DNA from: Bacteroidota bacterium
GTDB lineage: Bacteria; Bacteroidota; Bacteroidia; Chitinophagales; Chitinophagaceae
Reading direction: 5' to 3'
NCBI GenBank assembly: GCA_030706685.1
Contig: JAUZOA010000061.1
Location: 1 to 34,658, forward strand
Length of the DNA: 34,658 nucleotides
Made by a program: the position numbers and the translations under genes. The notes below the pieces were generated by a model. It was not told where the DNA came from, made no database searches, and saw nothing but the letters and a program-made list of their open reading frames with translations. Positions 11,299-34,628 of this stretch are shown here, piece by piece (position 1 is the first letter of the stretch; each line of letters begins with the position of its first letter).

Positions 11299-11321
11299 TG
11301 GAGGAACTTTATTATGCTTCT

Positions 11322-12958: not shown

Positions 12959-13096
12959 GATTTGCAATTTTTTCCAAAGATAGAAACAAATAAAACCAGT
13001 CAAAGGTTGCCTCGGCAGACGCAGCAAACAGCACAAAGAGGCTGTCCTTTAAGTGACTAATCATAGGGTGACGATTTCTTAATATTTATCTATATT

Positions 13097-13104
13097 TATT
13101 TTTG
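13097..13104 (+). promoter_or_regulatory. Candidate -7 element TATTTTTG of the TonB-dependent receptor gene
   Basis: The 8-mer matches the Bacteroidota -7 consensus TAnnTTTG and lies 43 bases before the receptor ATG. A clear -33 TTTG is not seen at the usual distance, and a second near-match (TTTCTTTG at 13116-13123) is an alternative, so the assignment is tentative. Confidence 0.4.
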
Positions 13105-13147
13105 GAATATTCCCTTTCTTTGCACTTAACACAGAAAACTAACTAAT

Positions 13148-16100
13148 ATGCTTAAGAGAATTACACTGACCCTTGCTATGGCATTTATAGCAGGGCTGTT
13201 TGTATCGGCCCAGGTTACTACCAGTAGTATTACCGGGTTTGTAAAATCAGATAAAGGCGGCCCTCTCGAAGGCGCCACCATTACCGCGATTCACCAACCC
13301 TCTGGTACAAAATATGTTACGATAAGCAAAAAAGACGGAAACTTTACCATACCCAATACCAAGATCGGAGGACCTTACACTATCACCGCAGAATTTGTCG
13401 GTTTTTCGCCCAGCAAAACCGAAAATGTTACCCTTAGCCTTGGCGAGCCTTTTGTAATTGATCTCACTCTTAGTACTAAAACGACTTCTTTAAGCGAGGT
13501 GATTCTTACTTCAGCAACAGCCAGGAGTAAGGCAAAAACCGGCGGCGCCTCTACTAACGTCAACTCCCGGATGTTAAACACCTTGCCCACTATTTCAAGA
13601 AGCATCACTGATTTTACCAGGCTGACACCGCAGGCTAACGGAAATAGTTTTGGAGGCAGGGACGGCAGGTATAATAATGTGACTGTAGATGGAGCCAACT
13701 TAAATAATAATTTCGGGTTAAGCACTGACCCCTTGCCGGGCGGTGGCGCTAACCCGATCTCCCTGGATGCCATTGAAGAAATTACTGTAAACATTGCCCC
13801 CTATGATGTGCGGCAGGCAAACTTCACCGGCGCCAATATCAGCGCCGTTACAAAAAGCGGAACCAATACCTTCCATGGCAGCGCATATGGCTATTACCGC
13901 AATGAAACATTTGCCGGAACTAATGTAGCTGGTTTTAAATTACCTCCGCCTGCAGTTACTTATAATAAAATATATGGCGGAACCCTTGGCGGCCCCATCA
14001 TTAAGAATAAATTATTCTTCTTCCTGAACGGGGAATATGAAGAAAAACCGGCTACACTTGCATATTACACGCCTCTTGGCGGAAGCGGATCGGGTAATAT
14101 TTCCCAGGTGCCGATTGATTCCATGATAAAACTTTCCAACTATTTAAATACAAAATATAATTATGATCCGGGAGCTTATGATAATTTTCAATCCAGCACG
14201 GTCGTAAAAAATCATAAATACCTTGCAAAATTAGACTGGAACATCAGCACCGTCAATAAACTCACAATTAAGTACAGCGACTTCCAGAATTCACAGAATT
14301 TTCTCCCCAGCCAAAGCGGCGGTATAAACGGGGCATCCAGCCAGTCTGGTATCGTGACGTATGGACCTAAATTCTCCACCACGGCTATGGCGTTTGGTAA
14401 TACCGTTTATGAACAGGTGGATAAAGTAAAATCAGGAAGTTTTGAGCTGACCAGTAATTTTCATGGAAAATTTGCCAACCAGTTGCTGGTAACAGCTACT
14501 AAAATCAGTACAGACAAGAATCATCCCGGCGCGCAATTTCCATTTGTAGATATCCTGGGTTTAACCGCCGGAAGCAAAAATAATTACCTGAGTTTCGGGA
14601 ATGAGCCCTTCAATGGTAATTACAATGTTGTGGTCAATGACGTATATACCGCGACTGACAACTTTAGTTATTTTGCCGGCAAACATACATTGACCGCCGG
14701 TGTTAGTTATGAATACCAGAAAGTAGGAAATGGATTTATGCCCGGCAGCCAGGGTTACTATGTATATGGCTCATTAGATGATTTTATCAATAACAGGGCG
14801 CCCAAATTATTTTCAATTACCTATTCTTTGGTGAAAGGTCAGGATGCTGTTATTTCAGCTAATTTGAAAATTGGCCAGGCAGGCGCTTATATCCAGGATG
14901 AAGTAAATGTGAATGATAAATTAAAAATTACTTATGGCCTGAGGATTGACAAGCCGGTTTATCCTGAGCAGCCACTGCCAAACAATGCAGTTAATGCGGA
15001 GAACCTGTATGACCACAGCGGAGCTATTACCACTTATAATACAGGAGCATGGCCTAAGAGTTCTCTTTATTGGTCTCCGCGTGTCGGCATGCGCTGGAAT
15101 TTGCCCGAAGAAAAAATTGTTATCAGGGCCGGAACCGGATTGTATACCGGTCGTATTCCCTTTGTTTATTTGACGAACCTGCCTACAGGTGTCGGACCCT
15201 ACCAGTTTGGTACTTTGATCACTTCCAACCTGCAGAATTTCCTGTTTAATCCGGATATGCATACTTACAATCCTTTTTATAATACTTCTTTGAATCCTGC
15301 CCAGTTTCCAACCGTAGGCGGTACGGTTGTTCCAACCGGTGCTTATGCCTTAATTAGTCCAAACTTTAAATTCCCCCAGGTTTGGCGTACCGACTTCGCT
15401 GTCGACAAACAACTGGGAAATGGCTTTGTAGCGACATTAGAAGCATTGTATACGAAAGATATCAACGCCGTATACATGTTTAACGCGAATCAGAAAGCTC
15501 CGGATATTACAATGTCAGGACCAGACAACAGACCTATTTATTCCTATATTACCCAAAATCTTAGCGGGGGCGCGTTAACGACTGCCCGCAATAATGCTAC
15601 AAAGCTCAACCTGGCTTCCGGTAACGCAGTTGTCTTAGACAACACCGCAAAAGGTGAATCTTTTTCGCTGACCGCCCTGCTCACCAAGAATTTTGCAAAA
15701 GGATTTTACGGATCTGTGGCCTACACTTATACAGCCGCTCTTGATGTTACAGCCAATCCCGGCAGCCAGGCCACTTCAGTATGGTCAGCTAATCCTACTT
15801 CCAGAACACAAAATGACCTGGAATTAGCGACTTCGGCTTTTTCAGTTCCTCACAGGGTTATTGCGAGTTTATCTTACCGGTTTGAGTATGCTAACCATTT
15901 GGCCACTACCGTTTCAGCTTTTTATGAAGGAGCCATCCAGGGTACTTTCTCTTATATTTACAATGGAGACGTGAATGGAGACGGAAACTCTGCCGACCTG
16001 ATGTATATTCCAAGAAACCCATCAGAAATTCACTTTGTAGATCTGCCGGCCTCAGGTAACACACCTGCTTTTACAGCGCAACAAGAATCAGATGTTTTCT

Positions 16101-16495
16101 TTAAGTTTATCGCGCAAGACCCCTATTTACGCAAACACCAGGGCCAGGTCGCGGAAAGAAACGGAACGCAGCAACCCTGGTACAACCGGGTGGACCTGAA
16201 GTTTGCCCAGGACTTCTTTATTAAAATAGGCAGCCACAGAAATACACTTCAGTTCACAGCCGATATTCTTAATTTCCCTAATCTTATCAATCATGACTGG
16301 GGTATTAAGCAATTCTTCATCGTCAATAATCCATTGAAAGTCGTCAGCTATACAAATGGACAACCTAACTTCCAGTTAGCAACTTATATACCTGTCGGGA
16401 CAACTACCGGCACTTTAATAGACAGAACCTATATTCATAATAACTCTTTGTCCAGTACGTATGCCATTCAACTTGGGCTACGTTATATTTTCTAA
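13148..16495 (+). CDS. TonB-dependent receptor with N-terminal CarboxypepD_reg domain
   Basis: The 1115-residue outer-membrane protein has a signal peptide (MLKRITLTLAMAFIAGLFVSAQ), a carboxypeptidase-regulatory-like beta sandwich (about 25-110; SSITGFVKSDKGGPLEGATI), a plug region (about 120-240; NVTVDGANLNNNFG and DAIEEITVNIAPYDVRQANF) and a long beta-barrel ending in LGLRYIF, with the terminal aromatic residue of barrel proteins. It resembles the OmpA-like 'carboxypeptidase regulatory-like TonB receptor' group more than SusC, and no SusD gene follows, so it is not a typical glycan locus. A SAQ(V)-type signal cleavage site fits. The substrate is unknown. The gene is transcribed alone and ends at a strong terminator. 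Confidence 0.94.
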   Translation: MLKRITLTLAMAFIAGLFVSAQVTTSSITGFVKSDKGGPLEGATITAIHQPSGTKYVTISKKDGNFTIPNTKIGGPYTITAEFVGFSPSKTENVTLSLGEPFVIDLTLSTKTTSLSEVILTSATARSKAKTGGASTNVNSRMLNTLPTISRSITDFTRLTPQANGNSFGGRDGRYNNVTVDGANLNNNFGLSTDPLPGGGANPISLDAIEEITVNIAPYDVRQANFTGANISAVTKSGTNTFHGSAYGYYRNETFAGTNVAGFKLPPPAVTYNKIYGGTLGGPIIKNKLFFFLNGEYEEKPATLAYYTPLGGSGSGNISQVPIDSMIKLSNYLNTKYNYDPGAYDNFQSSTVVKNHKYLAKLDWNISTVNKLTIKYSDFQNSQNFLPSQSGGINGASSQSGIVTYGPKFSTTAMAFGNTVYEQVDKVKSGSFELTSNFHGKFANQLLVTATKISTDKNHPGAQFPFVDILGLTAGSKNNYLSFGNEPFNGNYNVVVNDVYTATDNFSYFAGKHTLTAGVSYEYQKVGNGFMPGSQGYYVYGSLDDFINNRAPKLFSITYSLVKGQDAVISANLKIGQAGAYIQDEVNVNDKLKITYGLRIDKPVYPEQPLPNNAVNAENLYDHSGAITTYNTGAWPKSSLYWSPRVGMRWNLPEEKIVIRAGTGLYTGRIPFVYLTNLPTGVGPYQFGTLITSNLQNFLFNPDMHTYNPFYNTSLNPAQFPTVGGTVVPTGAYALISPNFKFPQVWRTDFAVDKQLGNGFVATLEALYTKDINAVYMFNANQKAPDITMSGPDNRPIYSYITQNLSGGALTTARNNATKLNLASGNAVVLDNTAKGESFSLTALLTKNFAKGFYGSVAYTYTAALDVTANPGSQATSVWSANPTSRTQNDLELATSAFSVPHRVIASLSYRFEYANHLATTVSAFYEGAIQGTFSYIYNGDVNGDGNSADLMYIPRNPSEIHFVDLPASGNTPAFTAQQESDVFFKFIAQDPYLRKHQGQVAERNGTQQPWYNRVDLKFAQDFFIKIGSHRNTLQFTADILNFPNLINHDWGIKQFFIVNNPLKVVSYTNGQPNFQLATYIPVGTTTGTLIDRTYIHNNSLSSTYAIQLGLRYIF

Positions 16496-16520
16496 TAACT
16501 CATTTTTCAATACTTCATTC

Positions 16521-16555
16521 AAGACAGTCCCGCCTTCGCGGGACTGTCTTTTTAT
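16521..16555 (+). terminator. Rho-independent terminator of the TonB-dependent receptor gene
   Basis: A perfect 13-bp stem, AAGACAGTCCCGC (16521-16533) with GCGGGACTGTCTT (16538-16550), closes on a CTTC loop and runs into TTTTTAT. It sits 26 bases after the receptor stop and 10 bases before the stop of the convergent DUF4846 gene. Confidence 0.92.
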
Positions 16556-16564
16556 AGTACCTGC

Positions 16565-17395
16565 TCACCATTTCTTTAACTGGTCGTTTCTAAATGTCCA
16601 TTCAGGTGTCACGATTGCAGAGAGGCTGTCTGCCTCATACCAGGGCGACAGCTTTTCATTGAGCGGGTTCTTCACTATATGAATATCCTGTGCCGGCATA
16701 TAACTTTGCGCAAGCATAAAAACCTTTTTCCCGGCGCTGTTTACCGCAACATCCATCACTATCATCGCATGACCGGGTGATCCGCCTTTTACAAACACAT
16801 CACCGGGGTTTATACCCAAAATATTTTTGGAATGCATTTCATGGCTTAAGGATAAGGTGCCGCAAAAAGAAAAAACGGTCTCGAGAAATGATTCCAGGCT
16901 GCCACGGAGATCAGTATCGCTGCTACTTTGTTTATAAGCGACCAGCCTGTTACCGGCAAGCCTGTACCGGGTTCCTTTGAGCCAATCAGTAAAGGACAAA
17001 ACTGTTCCATCTGTTGCCTTGAATATAATTTGGCTGACTTGGTTCTGATCGAAAAAATATTCTGCCCTCAAACGTAATATCGCGTCAGCGCATTGTTGCA
17101 GATCTTTTGTTCCTATGGTAATATCCAGTACAGCATATTGCGCCGATTGGTTCGCCTTTAGTGAGCCGTTGTATAAATAAACCCGGTTATCTTTTTTTAA
17201 CCGGACATTTCTCAGCCATTCCCCAAAAGAATGAGCCACCAATTCTACCCTTGTATAACCCGCAGGCGCTGGAATGTCCGATTCTTTTTGGAAAAGATTC
17301 AATTTACCTGTTTGTTGCGCCATGAGTTTTTTATCATTATCCCAATGGCATGCCATAAGAATAAAAAAAATAAAAGGGATGTATAGCCGGCTCAT
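16565..17395 (-). CDS. DUF4846 family lipoprotein
   Basis: The 276-residue protein starts with a signal segment and lipobox-like LMAC (Cys16), so it is probably a lipoprotein. The body matches DUF4846: AGYTRV near residue 46, SFGEWLRNVRLK, then DITIGTKDLQQCADAILRLRAEYF, a central GSLESFLETVFSFCGTLSL, and near the C-terminus a GDVFVKGGSPGHAMIVMD stretch followed by AQSYMPAQDIHIVKNP. The conserved PGHAMIVMD and QSYMPAQ strings are suggestive of a catalytic or ligand pocket (a His-containing papain-like/NlpC arrangement has crossed my mind), but no function is established. It is divergent from the carboxylase gene and convergent with the receptor. Confidence 0.85.
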   Translation of the reverse strand: MSRLYIPFIFFILMACHWDNDKKLMAQQTGKLNLFQKESDIPAPAGYTRVELVAHSFGEWLRNVRLKKDNRVYLYNGSLKANQSAQYAVLDITIGTKDLQQCADAILRLRAEYFFDQNQVSQIIFKATDGTVLSFTDWLKGTRYRLAGNRLVAYKQSSSDTDLRGSLESFLETVFSFCGTLSLSHEMHSKNILGINPGDVFVKGGSPGHAMIVMDVAVNSAGKKVFMLAQSYMPAQDIHIVKNPLNEKLSPWYEADSLSAIVTPEWTFRNDQLKKW

Positions 17396-17565
17396 AAAAG
17401 TTGGGTTTGAGCCTTAGAATCTTCACCGCCTATTTTCCATATACCTGTTATTAAATTCTACTGTTAATCATTTCAAAAACCTGCGGCTCATGAAGCCGCT
17501 ATAGGTACCGGGGGGCCGGACTTCGTACTTCCGGCTTCATACTTCTGACTTCTTCCCCACTCCCC

Positions 17566-17573
17566 TATCTTTG
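17566..17573 (+). promoter_or_regulatory. -7 promoter element TATCTTTG ahead of the carboxylase gene
   Basis: An exact TAnnTTTG match lies 21 bases upstream of the ATG at 17595. It overlaps the alternative TTG start at 17571, which would then fall before the transcript start; this is why the ATG at 17595 is preferred. It lies right after a degenerate ACTTC-type repeat (about 17522-17553). A hairpin, GCGGCT (17483-17488) with AGCCGC (17494-17499), lies further upstream. Confidence 0.65.
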
Positions 17574-17594
17574 CCGCTACAACTCACTCATACC

Positions 17595-19220
17595 ATGAAC
17601 ATTGAATTCAACAGGAATGAAGATGCTATGAAAATGGCGCTCAGCGGTATCAGGCGAAAACTGGAGAAGATCTACCAGGGTGGCGGTCCAAAAGCTATCA
17701 AAAAGCAAAAAGAAAAAAATAAACTTACTCCCCGGGAAAGAATAGAGTACCTCATTGATGCCAATAAGCCTTTTATTGAGATCGGCGCCTTTGCGGGTTT
17801 TGAAATGTATGAAGCCGAGGGGGGTTGTCCTGCGGGTGGAACAGTTGCAGGCATCGGGTATATCAGCGGCCGGCAATGTGTGATTCTTGCCAATGACCAG
17901 ACAGTAAAAGCCGGCGCCTGGTTTCCTATCACGGGTAAAAAAAACCTGCGGTTACAGGAGATTGCCATGGAAAACCATTTGCCTGTTATTTATCTTGTTG
18001 ACAGCGCCGGTGTTTTTTTGCCCATGCAGGATGAAATATTCCCGGATAAGGAACATTTTGGAAGGATATTCCGAAACAATGCCCGGATGAGCGCAATGGG
18101 AATAACACAAATAGCCGCGGTGATGGGCGCCTGTGTTGCCGGCGGCGCTTATCTTCCCATTATGAGTGATGAAACATTAATGGTGGAAGGGAATGGATCT
18201 ATCTTCCTGGCCGGTCCCTATCTTGTCAAGGCCGCAATAGGGGAAGATATAGATATTGAAACACTCGGGGGAGCTGTCACCCATACTGAAATTTCCGGCA
18301 TCGCGGACTATAAATTTAAAACGGAGCAGGAATGTATGGATCATATCAAAAGAGTAATATCCATGCTCGGTAAAAAAGAAACGGCAGGGTTTGACCGCGT
18401 TGCCCCCAAATCTCCCAAAAAAAACCAGGAAGAGTTGTATGGCATTTTTCCCGTTGACGGAAAGCCATACGATATGCTTGAAATTATTGAAAGGATAACC
18501 GATAATTCGGAGTTTGAGCAATTCAAGGAAGACTATGGTAAAACAATTATCTGCGGATATGCAAGGATCGAAGGATGGGCAGTGGGTATCGTAGCTAACC
18601 AGAGAAAAATTGTAAAAAATAAAAAAGGGGAAATGCAATTGGGAGGGGTTATCTATAATGACAGCGCCGATAAAGCAGCCCGTTTTATTTTGAATTGCAA
18701 TCAAAAGAAAATACCGCTTGTCTTCTTACAGGATGTTACCGGTTTTATGGTCGGCAGCCGCAGTGAGCATGCGGGAATTATCAAAGATGGCGCTAAACTC
18801 GTCAATGCTGTTGCCAACTCTGTGGTTCCCAAGATCACTATTATCATCGGCAACTCTTATGGCGCCGGAAATTATGCGATGTGCGGCAAAGCTTATGACC
18901 CGCGTTTTATTTATGCCTGGCCTTCCGCAAAAATTGCTGTCATGGGAGGCGACCAGGCTGCTAAAACTTTATTGCAAATACAAGTGGCTTCCATGAAATC
19001 ACAGGGCAGGGAAGTTAGCCCGGAAGAGGAAAAAAAGCTTCTGGATGAAATAAAAAACCGGTATGAAAAACAAACTTCACCTTGTTATGCAGCTGCCAGG
19101 TTATGGGTAGATGCAATCATTGATCCTGCTGAAACGAGAAAAATGATTACCGAAGCATTAAATTCAGCTAACGAAAATCCATTCCTTCCAGAACTCAAGC
19201 TGGGCGTGTTCCAGGTGTGA
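17595..19220 (+). CDS. Acyl-CoA carboxylase beta (carboxyltransferase) subunit, methylcrotonyl-CoA carboxylase-like
   Basis: The 541-residue protein is a biotin-dependent carboxyltransferase of the crotonase fold. It has an N-terminal half with GAFAGFEMYEAEGGCPAGGT and GACVAGGAYLPIMSDE, and a C-terminal half with GFMVGSRSEHAGIIKDGAK, YGAGNYAMCGKAYDPRF and AVMGGDQAAKTLL. The GNYAMCGKAYDPRF string and the internal GGAVTH segment resemble methylcrotonyl-CoA carboxylase beta (leucine degradation) more than propionyl-CoA carboxylase. It would transfer carboxyl from biotin to the acyl-CoA in the cytoplasm. No alpha (biotin carboxylase/carrier) subunit is adjacent, so its partner is encoded elsewhere and the substrate is not certain. 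Start choice is decided by the -7 element above. It is monocistronic. Confidence 0.92.
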   Translation: MNIEFNRNEDAMKMALSGIRRKLEKIYQGGGPKAIKKQKEKNKLTPRERIEYLIDANKPFIEIGAFAGFEMYEAEGGCPAGGTVAGIGYISGRQCVILANDQTVKAGAWFPITGKKNLRLQEIAMENHLPVIYLVDSAGVFLPMQDEIFPDKEHFGRIFRNNARMSAMGITQIAAVMGACVAGGAYLPIMSDETLMVEGNGSIFLAGPYLVKAAIGEDIDIETLGGAVTHTEISGIADYKFKTEQECMDHIKRVISMLGKKETAGFDRVAPKSPKKNQEELYGIFPVDGKPYDMLEIIERITDNSEFEQFKEDYGKTIICGYARIEGWAVGIVANQRKIVKNKKGEMQLGGVIYNDSADKAARFILNCNQKKIPLVFLQDVTGFMVGSRSEHAGIIKDGAKLVNAVANSVVPKITIIIGNSYGAGNYAMCGKAYDPRFIYAWPSAKIAVMGGDQAAKTLLQIQVASMKSQGREVSPEEEKKLLDEIKNRYEKQTSPCYAAARLWVDAIIDPAETRKMITEALNSANENPFLPELKLGVFQV

Positions 19221-19293
19221 TTCATGTTAAATAAAAGGCAGCGTATCAGAGAGTTTTTTTGTCTACTTTCATGAATAAAATATTTGAAAGCTT

Positions 19294-19995
19294 ATGAAAA
19301 AATTTACTCTTGCCCGTTTCGTTGCTATACTCTTTATTTCAATCAGCGTATTACAATCCTGTAAAAAAACAAAAGATACGGTACAAGCGCCTGCACCGGT
19401 TCCCGATCAAACCTATACACAGGAATTCGATAACATCGCTTCCGCTACTTCGGCAGGATGGAAATTTCTTAATCTTAGCGAAACACATACAACGGGTACA
19501 GTTGGCTTTGTAAATGGAGCAGGGTTTCCCGCTTATTCCGGCGCCGGTTTTATTTTTGCCGGTTACCAGGCTAATAACGGAGATGGTTTGATCAGCGTAT
19601 GGGCCATTTCACCAAAAGTAACTATGCAAAACGGTGATAAGATCACTTTCTACACGCTTTCAGTTAATGATTATACGGATCCCGCCAACGTTTATCCCGA
19701 CAGGTTGCAACTTCGTGCATCGCTATACAAAGGAGATGCGATTAAAGATGATCCGACAGACGTAGGGGGCTTTACTGTTAACCTCGTTGATGTTAACCCC
19801 ACCTTATCGGGTACGCCCCCGCAGGCTTATCCAAATACCTGGACAAAATTCGAAGGAACTATATCCGGACTCAGCAAACCTGTAGATGGTTATTTTGCTT
19901 TCCGTTATTTTGTAGCCGATGGAGGAACTAACGGAGCTAACAGTAACGGCATTGCCATAGATAAAGTCACTTACACGAGCGTGAATCATCAATAG
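19294..19995 (+). CDS. Choice-of-anchor J domain lipoprotein
   Basis: The 233-residue protein begins with a lipoprotein signal (ILFISISVLQSCKK; Cys23), then a linker and a beta-sandwich matching choice-of-anchor J/cleaved-adhesin domains. The signs are TQEFDN, SAGWKFLNLS, a central DGLISVWAISPKV strand, GDKITFYTLS, and the terminal YFAFRYF...NGIAIDKVTY, where the family ends in a V/I-x-I-D-x-V pattern. These domains usually bind carbohydrate or mediate surface contact, often in larger proteins; here the domain is alone on a lipid anchor. No partner gene is adjacent. Copy B of the dispersed repeat begins 25 bases after the stop. Confidence 0.83.
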   Translation: MKKFTLARFVAILFISISVLQSCKKTKDTVQAPAPVPDQTYTQEFDNIASATSAGWKFLNLSETHTTGTVGFVNGAGFPAYSGAGFIFAGYQANNGDGLISVWAISPKVTMQNGDKITFYTLSVNDYTDPANVYPDRLQLRASLYKGDAIKDDPTDVGGFTVNLVDVNPTLSGTPPQAYPNTWTKFEGTISGLSKPVDGYFAFRYFVADGGTNGANSNGIAIDKVTYTSVNHQ

Positions 19996-20019
19996 AAAAG
20001 AGATAAGTCTTATTTGCCA

Positions 20020-20148
20020 AGAGGATTTCCCAAAAGGTGTTTATTTCCCGCAGCGGGCGCTAAGATTCCCTATTTGGAAATCGCTTTTTTATACTTTGCG
20101 ACGCAGCGAGAAATTTTTCTTTTCTGACCTTTTGAGACACCCTCTTTG
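20020..20148. repeat. Palindromic dispersed repeat, copy B
   Basis: The second copy of the element at 5394-5520, in the same orientation. Shared blocks include CAAAAGGTGTTTATTTCCCG (with one difference at the first base), CGAGAAATT, TTCTTTTCTGA and CTTTTGAGAC. Its ends, AGAGG...CAAAAGGT and CCTTTTGAGA...CCTCTTTG, are complementary, as in copy A. It fills the gap between the lipoprotein stop and the rnhA upstream region and overlaps neither gene. Confidence 0.72.
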
Positions 20149-20186
20149 TTTTTTACCTGCGCAAAGGTTTATATCTTAGTTCTTTT

Positions 20187-20669
20187 ATGTCTTCCCATTC
20201 AATTACAATGTACACCGACGGGTCTTCCCGCGGCAATCCCGGTCCCGGCGGTTATGGCGTCATCCTGATTTCGGGCCATCATAGAAAAGAATTATCACAG
20301 GGCTATCGTCTTACCACCAATAACCGGATGGAGTTAATGGCAGTCATTTCGGGATTGGAAGCTTTGAAAAAGGACGGTAGCCGGGTGACTATCTATTCGG
20401 ACAGCCAATATGTAGTAAAAGCAATAGAAGAAGGATGGTTAAAAAACTGGATAGCTACCAATTTTAAAGGAGGCAAAAAAAATAGGGACTTGTGGATGCG
20501 CTACTATCATCTTGCACAAAAACATACGATCCGTTTTAAATGGGTAAGAGGCCATGCGGATAATCCATATAACAACCGTTGTGATGAACTGGCCACCCAG
20601 GCAGCTGATGGTAACCATCTATTAGTTGACGAAGGATATTTGCAGGATAAGAACAATCTTTTTCCTTAA
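20187..20669 (+). CDS. rnhA: Ribonuclease HI
   Basis: The 160-residue enzyme cleaves the RNA strand of RNA-DNA hybrids (primer removal, R-loop resolution). All catalytic acids are visible: D11 in MYTDGSSRGNPGPGG, E49 in NNRMELMA, D72 in YSDSQYV and D133 in NNRCDELA, with the catalytic-loop histidine H123 in RGHADNP. Length matches the bacterial RNase HI core; there is no extra hybrid-binding domain. The ATG lies 38 bases after the dispersed repeat. A weak -7-like TATCTTAG (about 20173) may drive it. It is followed by a terminator shared with the convergent DUF6580 gene. Confidence 0.97.
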   Translation: MSSHSITMYTDGSSRGNPGPGGYGVILISGHHRKELSQGYRLTTNNRMELMAVISGLEALKKDGSRVTIYSDSQYVVKAIEEGWLKNWIATNFKGGKKNRDLWMRYYHLAQKHTIRFKWVRGHADNPYNNRCDELATQAADGNHLLVDEGYLQDKNNLFP

Positions 20670-20694
20670 TACCCATTGGATGATGCGCATTAAA

Positions 20695-20717
20695 AAATCC
20701 TGCTCATGGCAGGATTT
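20695..20717. terminator. Bidirectional terminator between rnhA and the DUF6580 gene
   Basis: AAATCCTGC (20695-20703) pairs with GCAGGATTT (20709-20717) around a 5-base loop. On the minus strand the stem is followed by TTTTTTAA, a proper U-tract for the leftward gene; on the plus strand the tail is weaker (TTTAATT). It lies 26 bases after the rnhA stop and 24 bases beyond the DUF6580 stop. Confidence 0.82.
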
Positions 20718-20740
20718 AATTATCATCAGCGTTTATTCTT

Positions 20741-21343
20741 TTAAGCAAGCTGTGGCTTTGAAATTGTAAAGACCTTAGTAAGCAGGGAATACAATCCGTA
20801 TATGATAAATCCCCAGATCATATCACCAAGAATAAAATTGGCGGCAAACCCTTTTATTAATCCGAACTGGCGATAAAAAGCTATCCCGTCTCCATAGCAA
20901 AGCAGTAAACCGTTCCATGTATGTGGCCTGCCAAGACCCTGGCCCACTTCCCAGGTAATATAATTGGTGATCAGGAAAAAAAAGACAGAACCTGCTATGG
21001 AATAAATCGCCACATTCAGCATGTTTACCTTTTTCATTAAAAAACCGAAACAGGTAATAGCAATAAATGCCAGGTAAATAACCCATTGACCATCATAAAA
21101 ACCAAGCCTGCCCGTAAGACCCGCCTGGTTAAGAAAATAAAAGGCCAGGTCAGAGATGAACAGGGAAAGAACGGGAAGGATAAAAGCCCATTTTTTATCT
21201 TTAATAATTGCGCCGCCCAATAATGCCATCGCCATCTGCGGTGCAAACCCTTCAGGCTTATTAGGAATGAGGCGATAAAATGCCGCCGCCGCGAGGGACA
21301 ACAAAAAGATGACAACAACAGGTCTGTTAAGTTTCATATTCAT
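20741..21343 (-). CDS. DUF6580-like multi-pass membrane protein
   Basis: The 200-residue protein is almost wholly hydrophobic, with five or six membrane segments: about 8-26, 36-46, 50-70, 86-102, 109-127 and 168-190. The pattern 'FAPQMAMALLGGAIIKDKKWAFILPVLSLFISDLAFY' and a C-terminal FAANFILGDMIWGFIIYGLY resemble the DUF6580 group, which looks like the substrate-binding S component of energy-coupling-factor transporters. That resemblance is from memory of the pattern, not a computed match. If correct, it would bind a vitamin-like substrate in the inner membrane. No ATPase gene is adjacent. The gene is 49 bases downstream of manA on the same strand, so it may share its transcript. Confidence 0.72.
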   Translation of the reverse strand: MNMKLNRPVVVIFLLSLAAAAFYRLIPNKPEGFAPQMAMALLGGAIIKDKKWAFILPVLSLFISDLAFYFLNQAGLTGRLGFYDGQWVIYLAFIAITCFGFLMKKVNMLNVAIYSIAGSVFFFLITNYITWEVGQGLGRPHTWNGLLLCYGDGIAFYRQFGLIKGFAANFILGDMIWGFIIYGLYSLLTKVFTISKPQLA

Positions 21344-21392
21344 TGAGTTTCATTGCAAAAATAACAAGAATTCGTTTAACGAGACCGGGTAT

Positions 21393-22613
21393 TTATTCAT
21401 TGCTGCCAGGTGGTACCCCAGCCCTGAATACAAGTGAAGTCTCTATGGCTGATAATTGTATATCATTTCCGGGGAAAATGACCGCGGAAGGCGAGCCTTT
21501 TTTCAGACCTACCTTTTCATTGCCTGACTGGATCGAACAATTCCCCTCTATGAGTAATAATATCTCCGTCGTGCTTGCCTTTAAAGGAACGCTATCTCCT
21601 GCTTTAAGAGGGTAAGCCCATAATTCAAAGTCAGGAGCCGGTGTTTTATAGACAATGCCATTGCCCATCCGGTCTCCGTCCAGTATATTGACGATCCCCG
21701 GCTCGCATTTAACGTGTTTGAGCAGCTCCTTTACATCAATATGTTTAGTGGTCAGGCCACCGCGTAAGACATTATCGGAACTGGCCATGATCTCCACATT
21801 CTGTCCTTCAAGATAGGCATGAGGTATGCCTGCGTCCTGGAAAATAGCCTGCCCTCTCTGTAACTGTACAAGATTAAATAAATAAACAGAAAAGATTCCC
21901 CTGTCAATTTTTTCCGGCTGATTAAAAGTAAGCGCAGCTCTCGCCGCCCAGAAATCTTCCTGCGATTTCTTTAATTTTCCCGCATTGTACAAAGGAATAA
22001 TACGATCCAGCACAGGTTGTAAGATAACATTCACCTCTTCCTGCGGCATTCCCATTACTTTTTGATAGACCCCGCTATACCCGGATCTTTCAAAAACGGG
22101 TAAAAGGAATTTCAATTCATCAATACTTTGGAGCATGCCGGTGAGCTTCGCTACGGGTTTAAAACCATGTAAAAGCCAGAATTCACCCATGGCGACCATC
22201 AGTTCCGGCTTATGATTGTCATCTTTATAATTGCGGTCAGGCGCATCCAGTGGAATGCCCTTGTTATTTTCCTCCGCGAAATTCTTTTCTGCCCCGCTCT
22301 TCGACGGATGAACCTGTATGGACAGCATATCCTTTACATCCAGCGCCTTCAACAGGTAAGGAAGATTTCCAAAACGATGATAAACATAATGACCCAATTT
22401 CTCCAATGGAGCGAAACGGATAGTATCACGTAATGTCGCGGGAGACACACCTTCCATGATCACCCTGCAATCAGCCTGGGGATGCACACCCAGCCAGTAT
22501 TCCGCAAAAGGTTTTTTTTCCTTATTTATGACGTCAAGTAACGAAGGAATAAAAGAAAAACCTCCCCAATCATAGTATTTTACTGTTCCGGTTAATTGAG
22601 CAATTCCAGGCAT
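21393..22613 (-). CDS. manA: Mannose-6-phosphate isomerase, class I
   Basis: The 406-residue cupin enzyme interconverts mannose-6-phosphate and fructose-6-phosphate, feeding GDP-mannose and glycan synthesis. Type I zinc ligands are visible: Q100 and H102 in LSIQVHPSKS and E137 in DDNHKPELMVA, with a later histidine in GIPHAYLEGQNVEIMASSDNVLRGGLTTKH, which also carries the conserved R. The N-terminal YYDWGG is typical. Length matches the bacterial family (~390-420). It is divergent from the yraN-like gene, whose ATG is 28 bases away, so the two promoters must overlap or lie inside the flanking sequence. Confidence 0.95.
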   Translation of the reverse strand: MPGIAQLTGTVKYYDWGGFSFIPSLLDVINKEKKPFAEYWLGVHPQADCRVIMEGVSPATLRDTIRFAPLEKLGHYVYHRFGNLPYLLKALDVKDMLSIQVHPSKSGAEKNFAEENNKGIPLDAPDRNYKDDNHKPELMVAMGEFWLLHGFKPVAKLTGMLQSIDELKFLLPVFERSGYSGVYQKVMGMPQEEVNVILQPVLDRIIPLYNAGKLKKSQEDFWAARAALTFNQPEKIDRGIFSVYLFNLVQLQRGQAIFQDAGIPHAYLEGQNVEIMASSDNVLRGGLTTKHIDVKELLKHVKCEPGIVNILDGDRMGNGIVYKTPAPDFELWAYPLKAGDSVPLKASTTEILLLIEGNCSIQSGNEKVGLKKGSPSAVIFPGNDIQLSAIETSLVFRAGVPPGSNE

Positions 22614-24393: not shown

Positions 24394-24453
24394 TCCCGGA
24401 ATTCCGGAAACGGGATAAAGATACCCGGATGGGCTTTGTTGTTGCTCCCTGTT

Positions 24454-24495
24454 CAATTTTCCAATTTCCCAATTCCCGAATTTCCCGATTTCAAT
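24454..24495 (+). repeat. Degenerate ~8-base pyrimidine-rich repeat abutting the xerD start
   Basis: About five imperfect units of CAATTTCC/AATTCCCG run right up to the xerD ATG at 24496. The leader just before the start is therefore C/T-rich and has no Shine-Dalgarno match, which is normal for this phylum. Confidence 0.6.
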
Positions 24496-25413
24496 ATGTG
24501 GGAACCTTATAAAAAAGGATTCAAAGCTTACCTGCAGCTGGAAAAATCATTATCCGATAATTCCACGGAGGCTTACCTGCGGGATATTGATAAGCTCACC
24601 GAATACCTGCAGCAGAGCCATTCTTTAAAAGCTCCTTCAGAATTAAAGCTGAAAGATCTTCAGCAATTCACTAAGTGGATCGCTGAATCAGGGATGACAC
24701 CGTCTTCGCAGGCAAGGATTATATCCGGCATCCGGGCGTTTTATAAATATTGCCTGCTGGAAAACATTTCCAAAACCGACCCCACGACCCTTTTGGAAGC
24801 GCCCAAATTAAAACGGGCATTGCCCGATGTATTGAGTTTTGATGAAATTGAAAAGATCATTTCGCAAATTGATCTTAGCAAGCCGGAAGGAGGACGTAAT
24901 AAAGCGATACTGGAAACGATGTACAGTTGCGGGCTTCGTGTAAGCGAGGTAGTAAACCTCAGGATATCACAACTCTATTACGAAGCAGGTTTTATACGCG
25001 TCACGGGTAAGGGCGATAAAGAGCGATTAGTGCCCGTCGGCAGAAGCGCTGTAAAGTATCTGAAGATTTATCTCAAAGATATCCGCGTACATATTCCTGT
25101 AAAACCGGGCAACGAGGATATCGTTTTCCTGAATAAGCGGGGCGCCAAACTTTCACGGGTAATGATATTCCTGATCATTAAAGAATTAGCAGGGAAGGCG
25201 GGTATTCAAAAAACAGTTTCACCCCATACTTTCCGGCATTCATTCGCCACCCATTTAATCGAGGGTGGCGCCGATCTGAGGGCAGTACAGGAAATGCTGG
25301 GCCATGAAAGCATTACCACTACTGAAATATATACACATCTTGACAGGGAGTTTTTGAGAAAGACGCTGGAGAATTTTCATCCTGCATTTAAGTCCCAGAA
25401 GGCACACGGATAA
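24496..25413 (+). CDS. xerD: Tyrosine recombinase XerD (or XerC/D-type)
   Basis: The 305-residue site-specific recombinase has a SAM-like N-terminal core-binding domain (about 1-90) and a catalytic domain with the full set R148 (SCGLRVSEV), K172 (TGKGDKER), H244 and R247 (PHTFRHSFATH), H270 (MLGHES) and Y279 (TTEIYTHLD). It would act at dif sites to resolve chromosome dimers. The catalytic motifs and length are typical of XerD rather than a mobile-element integrase, and there is no sign of an island at its borders. The open frame extends upstream to 24436, but that adds the low-complexity repeat; MWEPYKKGFKAYLQLEK at 24496 is the natural start. A role at the tRNA-like sites in 30271-31161 is conceivable but unsupported. 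Confidence 0.92.
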   Translation: MWEPYKKGFKAYLQLEKSLSDNSTEAYLRDIDKLTEYLQQSHSLKAPSELKLKDLQQFTKWIAESGMTPSSQARIISGIRAFYKYCLLENISKTDPTTLLEAPKLKRALPDVLSFDEIEKIISQIDLSKPEGGRNKAILETMYSCGLRVSEVVNLRISQLYYEAGFIRVTGKGDKERLVPVGRSAVKYLKIYLKDIRVHIPVKPGNEDIVFLNKRGAKLSRVMIFLIIKELAGKAGIQKTVSPHTFRHSFATHLIEGGADLRAVQEMLGHESITTTEIYTHLDREFLRKTLENFHPAFKSQKAHG

Positions 25414-30082: not shown

Positions 30083-30270
30083 TAGTTTTATCTCCCCGGT
30101 CACTAATAGAATGCTGAAGTTGTATCTTAATCTGCCTGTTTTATAATTATTCGAAAGTTCTGTCGTGTAAGCTGGAATATCATTGAAATATCCCGGCAAG
30201 GGATAATAATGATGAAAGATCTGACCTGATCTCAGCCATTTTTCCAGGCAGAAGTTTCCAAATTTTTGAT

Positions 30271-30296
30271 ACAGGTTCGATTCTTGCTGGGGCTAC
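30271..30296 (+). repeat. Boundary element S1: tRNA 3'-end-like sequence
   Basis: The 26-base string ending GGTTCGATTCTTGC-TGGGGCTAC resembles a T-arm (5-bp stem-like ACAGG, loop TTCGATT, partner CTTGC with two mismatches to CCTGT) plus an acceptor end. No D-arm, anticodon arm or 5' acceptor strand is present in the preceding ~80 bases, so it is not a complete tRNA. It shares GGTTCGA and GGGCTAC with S2 and S3, and TTCCAAAT upstream with S3. It lies in a 312-base gene-free gap after the anti-sigma gene; the rest of that gap holds only the next promoter. Confidence 0.5.
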
Positions 30297-30365
30297 TTCA
30301 GGGCGATGAATGCAAATAGCCATCGACTATCCTTTGGACTGGGCATGCCAGATAATGATTTTGCA

Positions 30366-30384
30366 TCGTATATTTATATGTGTG
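30366..30384 (+). promoter_or_regulatory. Shared 12-mer plus -7-like TATGTGTG
   Basis: TCGTATATTTAT (30366-30377) is identical to 31304-31315 ahead of the LRR gene and is followed here by TATGTGTG (30377-30384), one base from TAnnTTTG. The ATG at 30395 is only 10 bases further, so the transcript would be near leaderless, in the same way as the LRR gene. Confidence 0.5.
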
Positions 30385-30394
30385 CAATAATGTT

Positions 30395-30907
30395 ATGACA
30401 ACAACTACACGGCAATCATACCTTGACCAATTAAGTGAATTTGAAACCACCCCCTTGTTTTTAACAAACAGGACAGATTCTATTGAAAGTGAAATTCATA
30501 ATAACAGTGTTTTCATTGGCTTGACCAAAGAAATCGCCAAACAGGTCTCAATTAATGATTTTACAGACTTTCTTGCTAAGGTAAAATTGAACCGACGAGA
30601 CCAACTCTTCAAAAGCTACCTCAACATAGATTTAATTTATTATTTGTGGTTTGACGAAATGGCTGGACAACTTCGACTTAATTTTATCAATTCAAATCAT
30701 GTAAGTCTGCCTTTCAAATGCAATCTTATATTTGTCGACACAGAACAGCAAATTATTGACGCCTTTCTCAATTCAAGCTATTTAGAGGGAATACCCTTTG
30801 ACGAGCTGACAGATGTCGAAAATAGTGATGAAGAAACTCACGACAATGCCTCTCCACATAATTTGAAAATATATCGGGAAACTATAGCGAGAAAGATTTC
30901 AAGGTGA
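30395..30907 (+). CDS. Hypothetical 170-residue protein
   Basis: I do not recognise a family. The protein has no signal peptide and no membrane segment. It starts MTTTTRQSYLDQLSEFETTP, has a central LFKSYLNIDLIYYLWFDEMAGQLRLNF and a polar, acidic tail (FDELTDVENSDEETHDNASP) with a basic end. Such mixed alpha/beta cytoplasmic proteins with acidic loops include immunity-type proteins, but nothing here proves that. An open frame begins at 30380, inside the -7 element, so the ATG at 30395 is chosen. Base composition is AT-richer than the genes before it. It lies alone between boundary elements S1 and S2. Confidence 0.65.
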   Translation: MTTTTRQSYLDQLSEFETTPLFLTNRTDSIESEIHNNSVFIGLTKEIAKQVSINDFTDFLAKVKLNRRDQLFKSYLNIDLIYYLWFDEMAGQLRLNFINSNHVSLPFKCNLIFVDTEQQIIDAFLNSSYLEGIPFDELTDVENSDEETHDNASPHNLKIYRETIARKISR

Positions 30908-30908
30908 C

Positions 30909-30925
30909 CGGCCTTAAAAAGGCCG
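30909..30925 (+). terminator. Short GC hairpin just after the hypothetical gene
   Basis: CGGCCTT (30909-30915) pairs with AAGGCCG (30919-30925) around AAA, starting 2 bases after the stop. The downstream TCATCATTT is only weakly U-rich, so it is a possible terminator or the 3' end structure of the cassette. Confidence 0.5.
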
Positions 30926-30977
30926 TCATCATTTAAAACATGAAAAGTTGCTGTCATAAGCCGTTGATCCGCAATAA

Positions 30978-31019
30978 ATCTTCCAGACAGTGGTTCGAAC
31001 TACGTCTTGTTTGGGCTAC
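30978..31019 (+). repeat. Boundary element S2
   Basis: A 42-base block running from ATCTTCC to TTTGGGCTAC, matching S3 at 38 of 42 aligned columns (three substitutions, one gap). The core AGTGGTTCGAACT is palindromic and AGAC...GTCT flanks it, so it can form a small stem-loop with a GGTTCGA loop. The end resembles a tRNA T-arm plus acceptor strand without the rest of a tRNA. Confidence 0.65.
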
Positions 31020-31025
31020 TTGGGC

Positions 31026-31075
31026 AGAAACAGAAAGAGAGCGGGAATGCGCGCACTCTTTCTCTTTCTGTTTCT
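31026..31075. other. Long perfect hairpin between S2 and S3
   Basis: AGAAACAGAAAGAGA (31026-31040) is perfectly complementary to TCTCTTTCTGTTTCT (31061-31075), giving a 15-bp stem over a 20-base GC-rich loop. Purine-rich and pyrimidine-rich arms also permit other registers. It begins only 7 bases after S2 and is not followed by a U-tract (CCTTTGAG), so it looks like a recombination or transcript structure rather than a simple terminator. Confidence 0.65.
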
Positions 31076-31120
31076 CCTTTGAGCTGTTCGCGCCTTTTAT
31101 AATTCGCTGATTTTTACTAG

Positions 31121-31161
31121 ATCTTCCAAATAGTGGTTCGAACTGCTCTTGTTTGGGCTAC
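31121..31161 (+). repeat. Boundary element S3
   Basis: A 41-base block from ATCTTCC to TTTGGGCTAC, a direct repeat of S2 that starts 143 bases downstream of it. It retains GGTTCGAACT and TCTTGTTTGGGCTAC exactly. It is followed by a 165-base leader and then the LRR gene promoter; the leader has no convincing gene (a 61-codon minus-strand frame over it is not supported). Confidence 0.65.
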
Positions 31162-31303
31162 AAATGTTTTAACAGGAAATCCCTGCGATGAAGATCGCGA
31201 ACAATTTATAGCCGTAAGCTGGTTTCGAGATATGCAACAAATTTTGCAAATGCTGCCATATTGATTATCAAGTGGATTGGTTTTAGCGGGTGAATGGTTC
31301 ATG

Positions 31304-31320
31304 TCGTATATTTATGTTTG
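31304..31320 (+). promoter_or_regulatory. Shared 12-mer plus -7 element TATGTTTG
   Basis: TCGTATATTTAT (31304-31315) repeats the element at 30366, and TATGTTTG (31313-31320) is an exact TAnnTTTG. The ATG of the LRR gene is 6 bases further on, which places the expected transcript start at or next to the start codon, suggesting leaderless translation. Confidence 0.6.
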
Positions 31321-31326
31321 TAGGCT

Positions 31327-31905
31327 ATGACAACACTCAAATTCATATCAAGCATATTTATTCTGACACTTATTGGAATTTCCCGCTCCTATAGTCTGGC
31401 AAACCACGTATACGTTATGAAAGCGAGCATTGATACCGCTTACAATATCTCGACAAAACAATTAAAGGGTGACAGGATTCCTGATAGCGTTTTCTGGATG
31501 ATCAATCTTAGGCATCTATCAGTTACTGGAATGGATTGTGACAATGGCAAGCCGAATTGCTGGATGATAAAAGAAATTCCTAAAGAAATAAAAAATCTTC
31601 GAAAATTAAAAACACTAAGACTCACTCTTAATGCAATTAGCGCAATTCCTAATGAACTGGCTGAATTAAAAAGCTTAAACCTCGTTGACCTGACAGATAA
31701 TGGGGGGCTTACAAACATTGACAACATTGCAAAAATTCAAAGTCTTGAGTATTTATATCTGTATGGCTGTGGATTGACAAAACTGCCAGGCAACATTGGT
31801 AGTTTGAAAAAATTAAAGGAATTAGGGCTGGTCGGCAATAACCTTGACAAAGCAGAACAGGCTAGAATTAGAAAGGCGCTCCCAAACTGTAATGTAAAGT
31901 TTTAA
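31327..31905 (+). CDS. Secreted leucine-rich-repeat protein
   Basis: The 192-residue protein has a signal peptide (TTLKFISSIFILTLIGISRSYS) and about five LRR units from residue ~55 to ~180: LRHLSVTGMDC, LRKLKTLRLTLNAISAIPNEL, LKSLNLVDLTDNGGLTNIDNI, IQSLEYLYLYGCGLTKLPGNI, LKKLKELGLVGNNLDKAEQ. The 'LP.NI..L..L..L.L..N' spacing of ~23 residues is the plant-like/ROC bacterial type. LRRs bind proteins, so a surface or periplasmic binding role is likely; a partner is not known. Cysteines in the cap (DCDNGKPNCW) may form a disulphide. It is preceded by S3 and its own short promoter, and lies in the AT-rich accessory region. Confidence 0.85.
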   Translation: MTTLKFISSIFILTLIGISRSYSLANHVYVMKASIDTAYNISTKQLKGDRIPDSVFWMINLRHLSVTGMDCDNGKPNCWMIKEIPKEIKNLRKLKTLRLTLNAISAIPNELAELKSLNLVDLTDNGGLTNIDNIAKIQSLEYLYLYGCGLTKLPGNIGSLKKLKELGLVGNNLDKAEQARIRKALPNCNVKF

Positions 31906-32449: not shown

Positions 32450-32510
32450 CAGATTTCGGTTGCCTCGGTTCGTGTCTACTCTCGAACCAAGACGTAGACA
32501 TGGGGTAATT
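32450..32510 (-). repeat. Candidate boundary element S4 with overlapping inverted repeats
   Basis: On the minus strand this region has GGTTCGAGAG and, ~30 bases on, TGGGGTAGCTC, a weak relative of the GGTTCGA...GGGCTAC pattern, sitting upstream of the lipocalin-like gene as S1 and S3 sit upstream of theirs. It also holds two overlapping inverted repeats: GGTTCG (32467-32472) with CGAACC (32483-32488), and TGTCTAC (32473-32479) with GTAGACA (32494-32500), an interleaved, pseudoknot-like order. Confidence 0.35.
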
Positions 32511-33645: not shown

Positions 33646-34033
33646 GGCCTCAAAGAGCTAATCGTTACCCAAATTTGCCGGCGGTGGTTCCAATAATAAA
33701 GTTTTGCCTCTTGCTGGAGCGCGCTTAGTTTGAATAAATGAAGCCTGTTGTGGTTTTCGTCATGCTTTGCACCAGGTAGATGCTGTGTTACTTTCTTTTC
33801 TTAAAAAAAGAAAGTAACCAAAGAAATTCAAGGCCAATTCAAAGTATATATTTCGCTATTCGCAAATTCCTCTGTGAATTGGCCGTCCGAACAGTCCTTT
33901 AAACCGAAGGGCTTAAGGACGAAGATTACAATTCGTGCTATGCGCACACCCGGGAGGCGCTAATGTTCCGCCTTAGTTTTCCGATAGAAGAAAGTTTATC
34001 AAAGCAGGACGGAACAAGGCGCTGGAAGACCCA
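33645..34033. repeat. Left arm of a ~980 bp inverted repeat (foldback element)
   Basis: This 389-base arm is the imperfect reverse complement of 34265-34628. The best block (33738-33848 against 34452-34560) has only a few differences in ~110 bases. The arm holds a run of hairpins: GTTACTTTCTTTT with AAAAGAAAGTAAC (33787-33818), GGCCAATTC (33832-33840) with GAATTGGCC (33876-33884), GTCCTTTAA (33894-33902) with TTAAGGAC (33913-33920), and GCGC...GTTCCG (33957-33970) with CGGAAC...GCGC (34010-34022). The outermost conserved block is 33645-33679. A 40-codon frame starting at 33780 stops at 33900-33902, so no protein spans it. Confidence 0.82.
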
Positions 34034-34264
34034 TAGGCAGGGGGTGAACTATCGAATAAATGATTTTAGGGTATAATTGACTGCTTCCCGGTAAGGCCCA
34101 AGCAGATTTTCATGGTTATCAATATTTATTTGAGCGATCCAATATTTGTATGCAATGTAAAATAAATTGGACGAAGCTGTCTTTATTAGCCCGGTTATCC
34201 CGAAACAAGGCTGACAGATAGTCTTTACGAAAAATTTTTCAATGTAAGGATAACTACTGTGCTG
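34034..34264. other. Unpaired centre of the large inverted repeat
   Basis: This 231-base AT-rich centre lies between the two arms. It has no open frame of note, no recognisable transposase and no RNA gene. No repeat to the arms is seen. Confidence 0.5.
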
Positions 34265-34628
34265 TGGGTCTTCCAGCGCCTTGTTCCGTCGTTGTTTAGT
34301 AACAACTCATCTTTTAGAAAACCAGGACGGAACACTAGCGCCTCCCGGGTTCTCCTGTAACACGAAGCAGAGTCATCATCCTGAGGCCGTTCGATCTTAA
34401 TGACTGTTCGAACGGCCAATTCACAGAGAAATTTGCTGATAACAGGGTGTATACTTTGAATTGGCCTTGAATTTCTTTGGTTACTTTCTTTTTTTAAGAA
34501 AAGAAAGTAACACAGCATCTACCTAGAGAAAAGCATGACGAAAACCACAACAGGCTTCATTTTTCAGACATAATTATTCCGCAAGCAGTAATTGGTAAAT
34601 TTGGGTAAGGACTAGCTCAAAGAGGCCG
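34265..34628. repeat. Right arm of the ~980 bp inverted repeat
   Basis: This 364-base arm mirrors the left one. It keeps the same hairpins read on the minus strand: the GTTACTTTCTTTT stem near 34480-34512, the GGCCAATTC/GAATTGGCC stem, and the GCGC...GTTCCG/CGGAAC...GCGC stem, while the third hairpin is rebuilt with other bases (AGTCAT with ATGACT). A 97-codon minus-strand frame (34225-34518) overlaps it, but the left arm breaks that frame, so it is not annotated as a gene. The outermost match is 34594-34628. A further weak hairpin (GGCCGTCACC with GGTCGGCC) occupies 34624-34655 at the window edge. Confidence 0.82.

Follow-up and report, generated by a model that had tools for sequence, protein, structure and literature searches.

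Probable non-autonomous gene cassettes arrayed behind tRNA genes and tRNA remnants in a Bacteroidota genome

The array on contig C185

The stretch of DNA analysed here, called the window, is the whole of contig C185 (34,658 bases), one of the 226 contigs in a 5.74-Mb draft genome of a Bacteroidota bacterium (GCA_030706685.1; hereafter G000, other genomes and contigs being numbered likewise). Its plus strand carries a short tandem array of units, named cassettes A, B and C, which are separated by the junctions S1, S2 and S3. An original prediction made from the letters alone had described these junctions as GGTTCGA followed by GGGCTAC, and we find them at 30274-30296, 30992-31019 and 31135-31161, all on the plus strand. 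The pattern GGTTCGAN{4,30}GGGCTAC has three matches in the window and none in 100 dinucleotide shuffles. The likeness of S2 to S3, put at 38 of 42 columns, comes to 37-38 of 42 on re-reading, varying with the placement of a one-base gap, and extends further upstream (75% over 51 nt).

S1 differs from S2 and S3 in kind, a point overlooked in the original prediction. A 47-nt stretch at 30250-30296 on the plus strand shares 88% identity with the 3' portion of the tRNA-Arg(CCT) of this genome (query positions 149-196, E 6.8e-9). It represents a decayed 3' half of that tRNA gene, ending in GGTTCGATTCTTGCTGGGGCTAC, and heads the array as its anchor, an attB-like site. ARAGORN found no tRNA gene in the window, and Rfam gave no match there at gathering score.

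Cassette A (30297-31019, plus strand) is bounded by S1 and S2, spans 723 bp at a GC content of 0.37, and carries one gene at 30380-30907, on the same strand, with 175 codons (175 aa) from a GTG at 30380 and a later ATG at 30398. At the thresholds used, its product matched nothing in Pfam, NCBIfam or PADLOC. Just ahead of the gene, at 30366-30383 (plus strand), lies a promoter-like repeat, TCGTATATTTATATGTGT, which is common to other cassettes. Cassette A ends on the right with the cassette-type site S2 (30966-31019, plus strand), which also flanks cassette B on its left and scores 57.4 bits with R1, a sequence-only site model built from 11 sites of G000 with S2 among its training rows.

Cassette B (31020-31161, plus strand) is the gene-free unit with a 15-bp hairpin that had been noted between S2 and S3. 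It is 142 bp long, resembles a terminator, and has six genome copies with a common left boundary. The inverted repeat at its left end is perfect (arms 31026-31040 and 31061-31075; whole element 31026-31075, plus strand) and would form a terminator-like hairpin. Its right end is S3 (31108-31161, plus strand; R1 56.8 bits, also a training row). Cassette C starts after S3, at 31162 on the plus strand, and includes a promoter-like motif (31304-31321) and a leucine-rich repeat (LRR) gene at 31327-31905 that matches LRR families. Its right end was not found, as the window holds no further R1 match at E<=1.

Each gene had been credited with its own promoter, and this is plausible. The motif GTATATTTA occurs at 30368 and 31306, right before both genes and nowhere else in the window; a sigma-70 scan did no better than on shuffles (9 sites in the window, shuffle mean 5.7, sd 2.6).

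Sites, units and anchors across genomes

The junction is not confined to the window. In G000, the pattern GGTTCGAN{6,16}GGGCTAC has 11 matches, against none for a reversed control, and R1 gives 26 matches at E<=0.001 and 41 at E<=1. Among these 26, 11 are training rows that match by construction, two more are identical copies and about 13 are new; 22 reach the CTAC end (model position 52 or beyond) and four are partial. A second model, R2, draws on 24 sites in several genomes (12 in G000 itself) and finds 29 matches in G000 at E<=0.01. In the alignments, a cassette site is about 50 nt long: TAAATC and GTTCGAACT are separated by some 13 nt, and a further 4 nt or so lead to a 14-nt core similar to the 3' end of tRNA-Arg. 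This core is best written CYTG(TCG)GGNCTAC, with positions 1, 8, 11, 12, 13 and 14 (C, G, C, T, A, C) invariant in all 24 aligned rows. Both sites of genome G396 have the core CCTGTCGGGACTAC, which is the 3' end of tRNA-Arg(CCT) as found in G000, G001 and G266.

By strict pattern, the site system is rare yet phylogenetically coherent. The exact 27-nt pattern was found in 6 of the 394 genomes of the family, with no match for the reversed pattern, and in ten stretches of an 84,980-genome collection, nine of which belong to records titled Bacteroidetes, Bacteroidota or Chitinophagaceae. The tenth, from Silanimonas, lacks the AT-rich arm and was taken as chance. These are counts by a pattern that misses diverged sites, recovering six of those in G000. 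Family-wide R1 matches (19 of 394 genomes at E<=0.001) were mostly single, partial, AT-rich and short of the CTAC end, and were not counted as arrays. A viral origin was considered and set aside. Two exact site-pattern scans of a viral collection gave no match; the 22-nt tRNA-end pattern hit 16 viral stretches and its last 15 nt hit 60, and these 60 loci are tRNA ends or unrelated sequence, with no convincing cassette site among them (best R2 E 0.089).

Array heads coincide with tRNA genes or their remains. Three arrays of G000 start on intact genes, namely tRNA-Arg(CCT) on C26, tRNA-Arg(CCG) on C62 and tRNA-Glu(TTC) on C208, and the last base of the head is the ARAGORN-predicted tRNA 3' end in all three, as it is in G001 and G266 (both tRNA-Arg(CCT)). 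The head on C5 is a decayed 3' part of tRNA-Arg(CCT) (86% identity), and those on C41 and C202 are tRNA-like 22-mers. Partial matches to the site model also lie 3' of tRNA-Arg(CCG) in G001 (E 1.6e-4) and of tRNA-Glu(TTC) in G241 (E 4.2e-5). As a separate observation, the tRNA-Arg(CCT) of G002 (C150, stretch L245, 114-186) has first seven bases (GGTTGCG) that pair poorly with its own 3' end. An exact repeat of 23 nt of that end lies about 3.4 kb downstream, at 3630-3651, and the 3' end of this gene may have been exchanged by an insertion.

We delimited 24 units in 11 selected arrays (eight in G000 and one each in G001, G266 and G396), three unit ends, on C47 and in G266, being approximate. These arrays are tandem series of mostly single-gene units with one site per unit. 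Five units are gene-free and measure 142-148 bp, eighteen measure 723-4700 bp, and one, in G266, reaches 17.6 kb. The 25 proteins of at least 100 aa that they encode show no mutual BLASTP match at E<=1e-3. Where Pfam recognizes the cargo, it is diverse: a GNAT acetyltransferase, a PhoD-like phosphatase, a putative esterase, an AraC-type regulator with an alpha/beta hydrolase, Fic and OmdA proteins, an MGH1-like glycoside hydrolase with two dehydrogenase-type proteins, DUF4279, DUF4261, DUF6603 and Peptidase_M64. The Fic protein matches a defence model, and several cassette proteins have no Pfam match. The 17.6-kb unit (C63 of G266, 4629-22247) lies between two cassette-type sites and holds five large open reading frames (ORFs) of 1103, 1856, 619, 863 and 1169 aa, of which Pfam assigns Peptidase_M64 to the 863-aa protein and DUF6603 to the 1169-aa one and has no match to the other three.

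The clearest sign of movement is the gene-free unit bounded by S2 and S3 in the window. At 142-148 bp, it occurs at six places in the genome with different flanks: behind tRNA-Arg(CCT), tRNA-Arg(CCG), a tRNA remnant, two tRNA-like 22-mers and the cassette site S2. One and the same unit therefore stands behind tRNA ends as well as behind the site of another cassette. On the left, the likeness among copies starts at CTAC in six of six, the copy on C5 differing at the next two bases; on the right, it stops after CTAC in five of six, the copy on C202 being without the right half of the core.

The cassettes also share an internal order. They start right after CTAC, often with a terminator-like hairpin, followed in several of them by a shared leader, then usually one unrelated gene, and finally the site of about 50 nt. 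Hairpins of this type were found at 21 of 38 left ends; the corresponding counts were 326 among 2000 random 90-nt windows and 6 among 33 windows taken immediately upstream of sites. The 38 left ends are not independent, as they include ends right behind tRNA heads and five gene-free cassette copies. This enrichment makes sense if insertion displaces the terminator of the tRNA gene. The GTATATTTA motif occurs 13 times in 335 kb of strand (both strands of 13 stretches of G000) and precedes 7 of 14 cassette genes by no more than 150 nt. Cassettes on C5 and C47 with unrelated genes have a leader in common (97.5% over 40 nt), as do cassette A of the window and two cassettes on C47 (77-80% over 41-57 nt), and cassette A also shares a 3' part with a cassette on C5 (78% over 111 nt). 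In the shared-leader cases a different gene thus sits within a conserved frame; the remaining cassettes showed no shared leader in this comparison. A promoter function for the GTATATTTA leader and a terminator function for the hairpin are plausible, if unproven.

The same anchor holds different cassettes in different genomes. The tRNA-Arg(CCT) locus is marked by one upstream gene in G000, G001, G003, G004 and G266 (63-76% identity; 67-76% among G000, G001 and G266). In G000, the tRNA gene is followed by a gene-free cassette and a cassette for a 229-aa protein. G001 has three cassettes there, encoding an OmdA protein, three genes including the glycoside hydrolase, and the Fic protein. In G266, a member of another genus, the locus holds an 829-bp cassette and the 17.6-kb unit; the stop codon of an L,D-transpeptidase ORF in the 829-bp cassette lies across that cassette's left boundary. 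Behind the tRNA-Arg(CCT) of G003 are other genes, and a search of 14 kb there gave no R2 site; G004 carries an integrase element at the locus, and G002 shows a weak partial site only (E 0.04). Different genes thus occupy the space behind a syntenic anchor in G000, G001 and G266, the kind of outcome for which the original prediction had proposed to test. Together with the genome-wide sites and the gene-free unit at six places, this supports its view that the locus follows the logic of a gene-cassette array.

Some other repeats were seen in or near these arrays. A unit of about 600 bp that ends in a cassette site is repeated at 84-85% identity in the arrays on C5, C47 and C160 (L016 8963-9554, L070 7217-7817 and L072 5184-5775), and its copy on C5 contains a 56-bp palindrome. 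A dispersed short palindromic element, GGTTCGT...ACGAACC with GACAC or GTGTC inside, was recognized by eye near several arrays and is distinct from the cassette site; it lies at 32465-32497 in the window, near 2850 on C62 (stretch L019), and near 3980 and 3470 on C41 (stretch L017). The window also contains a 301-nt inverted repeat (33736-34036 and 34262-34562, 83% complementary, with 225 nt between the arms), inside which are the near-perfect short palindromes GTTACTTTCTTTT.../AAAGAAAGTAAC.

A possible integrase in trans and rival explanations

We consider it very likely that these units are gene cassettes, and we infer that they are mobile. Our preferred reading, which we hold to be probable, is that they are non-autonomous cassettes spread through the genome and inserted by a tyrosine integrase acting in trans, perhaps one of the family with Arm-DNA-bind_5 and Phage_int_SAM_5 domains. 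Under this proposal, such an integrase would make a circle from an excised cassette, and the circle would recombine at its tRNA-like core with the 3' end of a tRNA-Arg or tRNA-Glu gene or with the site of a cassette already in place. The tRNA would keep its 3' end, and the cassette hairpin would take the place of the displaced tRNA terminator. The site at the right end would then be a fresh target, allowing the array to grow. With less certainty, integrase elements behind tRNA-Arg(CCT) and tRNA-Arg(CCG) in relatives may serve as helpers, the cassettes being their integrase-less satellites. Insertion of circles in this manner would account for the growth of arrays, for arrays without an integrase and for their mixed heads.

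The candidate enzyme comes from G004, where the ORF that opens the element lies 165 nt behind tRNA-Arg(CCT) and encodes a tyrosine integrase of 403 aa in which Arm-DNA-bind_5, Phage_int_SAM_5 and Phage_integrase domains are recognized. Relatives of this protein give 26 matches in 24 of the 394 family genomes at E<=1e-30. A tRNA scan of 21 of the 26 loci placed eight behind tRNA-Arg (two CCT, six CCG) and eight behind tRNA-Asn, -Gln or -Leu, with no tRNA at five; the other five loci comprise four without a tRNA and one that holds another fragment of a gene already counted behind tRNA-Arg(CCG). The six closest members (61-100% identity) all lie behind tRNA-Arg. In two elements the final 14 nt of the tRNA are repeated at attR, at +10,242 (G090) and +50,683 (G131), in the position that the core takes in cassettes. 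A truncated relative in G209 (52% identity) begins some 80 nt past a cassette-type site, the only case in which an integrase was seen beside such a site. The linked recombinase family that the original prediction proposed to look for was thus found in part: a tyrosine integrase family sits behind the same tRNA-Arg genes in relatives, and once beside a cassette-type site, and no dedicated recombinase was found in G000. As an aside, the 10.2-kb element of G090 (C1:672500-684500), behind tRNA-Arg(CCG) and ending in the 14-nt tRNA repeat, has the integrase as the only mobility gene evident by eye; its large ATPase-like ORFs have the look of defence genes.

Several observations weigh against the preferred reading. 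Pfam detects no recombinase, and no transposase, among the 25 cassette proteins, and PF00589 has two matches only in G000, XerD (by equivalog) and a second protein whose best model is XerC, below the cut-off of that model. Nor does G000 encode a relative of the G004 integrase beyond a match to XerD at E 0.029, and the site-bearing genomes G044, G394 and G396 gave only Xer-like matches to it (E 0.003-0.016). Both attR sites are without the cassette arm TAAATC...GTTCGAACT; three of five long elements (G027, G096, G222) showed no attR in the 44-60 kb searched, and the G004 element showed no tRNA repeat before the contig end. Of the 47 model positions, the G209 site covers only 3-35, and except for GGTCTAC its core fits poorly. 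At the recombinase loci tested, a subset of those listed in other site-bearing genomes, no cassette site lies within 1-2 kb on each side, G209 excepted. The sites themselves raise difficulties as well. The cores of G000 cassettes have drifted, often having little beyond GGNCTAC in common with the tRNA, and the distance from GTTCGA to the CTAC end is 22 nt in tRNA heads, mostly 26-30 nt in cassette sites and 20 nt on C51. Nothing is conserved to the right of CTAC, which is awkward for a symmetric core site. CTnDOT-type integrases tolerate mismatched overlaps. Because the attR sites lack the arm, G000 has no close relative of the integrase, no site was found near the tested recombinase loci and the PF00589 census is incomplete, we regard the assignment to this particular family as evenly balanced between right and wrong.

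The incompleteness of that census bears directly on the first alternative, in which the same cassettes would be modules that exploit the host's XerC/XerD or another host recombinase. XerC- and XerD-like proteins are the sole PF00589 matches in G000, G396 likewise has only two, and G396, G044 and G394 are without a close relative of the tRNA-Arg integrase. The housekeeping XerD gene of G000 even lies in the window (24436-25413, plus strand; TIGR02225 equivalog, 348.7 bits against a cut-off of 329.6), about 5 kb from the array, although this proximity is one case among many arrays. However, G080 has two PF00589 matches and, in addition, a 340-aa relative of the G004 integrase adjoining tRNA-Asp that this model missed, and PF00589 alone is therefore no complete census of integrases. 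The targets are tRNA 3' ends, the core is tRNA-like, and an integrase family sits behind exactly these tRNA genes, and we think it unlikely that Xer recombination moves the cassettes. About as unlikely, to our mind, is ordinary decay, whereby integrative and conjugative elements (ICEs), integrative and mobilizable elements (IMEs) or prophages accreted at tRNA-Arg and shrank to leftovers resembling cis-mobilizable elements (CIMEs), without any selection favouring a cassette format. Elements are known to accrete in tandem at tRNA genes and then to decay (PMC5704250), and integrase elements occupy the same tRNA-Arg genes in G004, G090 and G131. The 17.6-kb unit of G266 would also fit, but the other 23 of the 24 units measure 142-4700 bp, the majority contain just one open gene, and 5' and 3' modules recur in several of the units. 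Decay would not yield matching leaders before unrelated genes, and it sits poorly with a 142-148-bp unit copied to six places with the same left boundary.

Two further alternatives invoke other classes of element. Tandem single-gene units with one conserved 3' site each, in a genome without an integron integrase, recall a cluster of attC sites lacking an integron integrase (CALIN) with unusual attC sites. As the original prediction had stated, however, the junction does not fit attC. The boxes RYYYAAC...GTTRRRY occur in order in none of the 24 aligned sites (GTTRRRY alone in three, RYYYAAC alone in one); with about 110 nt more upstream, both boxes are still found in none of the 24, and GTTRRRY lies near the junction in two. 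No stable fold emerged when compared with shuffles, z ranging from -1.08 to +1.02 for eight bottom strands and from -0.85 to +1.20 for eight top strands. Both PF00589 matches of G000 fall far below the cut-off of integron-integrase models, so no integron integrase was detected there. Since the anchors are, moreover, tRNA genes, an aberrant integron array appears highly improbable. Insertion right after CTAC, with no conserved sequence to its right, could also be the work of a DNA transposon (e.g., HUH/IS200-type) or a retro-element that inserts 3' of CTAC without target duplication. Yet the 25 cassette proteins include no transposase (the rest of the genome was not searched for these), no left-end structure is common to all cassettes, and GTTCGA is kept at the targets, which points to a longer recognized site; we give this last explanation almost no weight.

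Comparison with known systems

Among described systems, integrons come to mind first. Promoters borne by cassettes and cassettes without an ORF are known in integrons (PMC8618304), and CALIN arrays have been described as integron hitchers (PMC11389934). Like these, the arrays reported here consist of tandem, mostly single-gene units with one conserved 3' site each, and arrays without an integrase would need an enzyme in trans. They differ in having a site that resembles a tRNA 3' end and has no stable fold, several tRNA anchors rather than attI, shared leaders, and no IntI.

CIMEs, which derive from ICEs or IMEs that have lost their integration and transfer genes, relate to the accretion of such elements at tRNA genes (PMC5704250). 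They resemble our arrays in that the units lack an integrase and lie between att sites beside a tRNA gene, with integrase elements behind the same tRNA genes and bounding sites that share their core with the target tRNA (exactly in G396; diverged in G000). Here, in contrast, the units are on a cassette scale, from 142 bp to a few kb, mostly with single genes and with shared leader and 3' modules, and many arrays occur per genome, on tRNA-Arg (CCT and CCG), tRNA-Glu and remnants.

A tRNA-anchored, flexible character is also shared with tycheposons and repeat-marked tRNA islands (PMC10872708, PMC11389934). Tycheposons span 4-200 kb, and those of Methylophilaceae carry a tyrosine recombinase; an additive island of that family is marked by the recurring last 20 bp of a tRNA-Lys gene (PMC10872708). 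In our arrays, 22 of the 24 units are shorter than 4 kb, no recombinase is found among the proteins, and a conserved arm lies upstream of the tRNA-like core. The small scale, the short sites and the proposed dependence on a recombinase in trans are reminiscent of the Xer-dependent pdif modules, small gene modules that lie between short recombination sites, whereas the sites described here are tRNA-like. The portions of the open-licence PMC literature that were retrieved (preprints not covered) contained no description of such single-gene cassette arrays, and one may exist elsewhere.

It is possible, if slightly short of probable, that we are looking at a second, independently evolved form of gene-cassette capture. 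In it, self-promoted, terminator-bearing single-gene cassettes would leave and re-enter at a double-stranded sequence that mimics the tRNA-Arg 3' end, each insertion restoring a landing site, on a platform of ordinary tRNA-Arg and tRNA-Glu genes, with the enzyme borrowed from passing integrase elements. If so, single-gene cassette arrays would not be exclusive to integrons, and integron-free bacteria could collect and shuffle genes behind their tRNA genes by means of integrases that come and go. The site model and the tRNA anchor together provide a signature that can be searched for, and they come with a candidate enzyme family and a testable rule of array growth. In sum, the arrays work like those of integrons and like the accretion of CIMEs, but look like a distinct variant.

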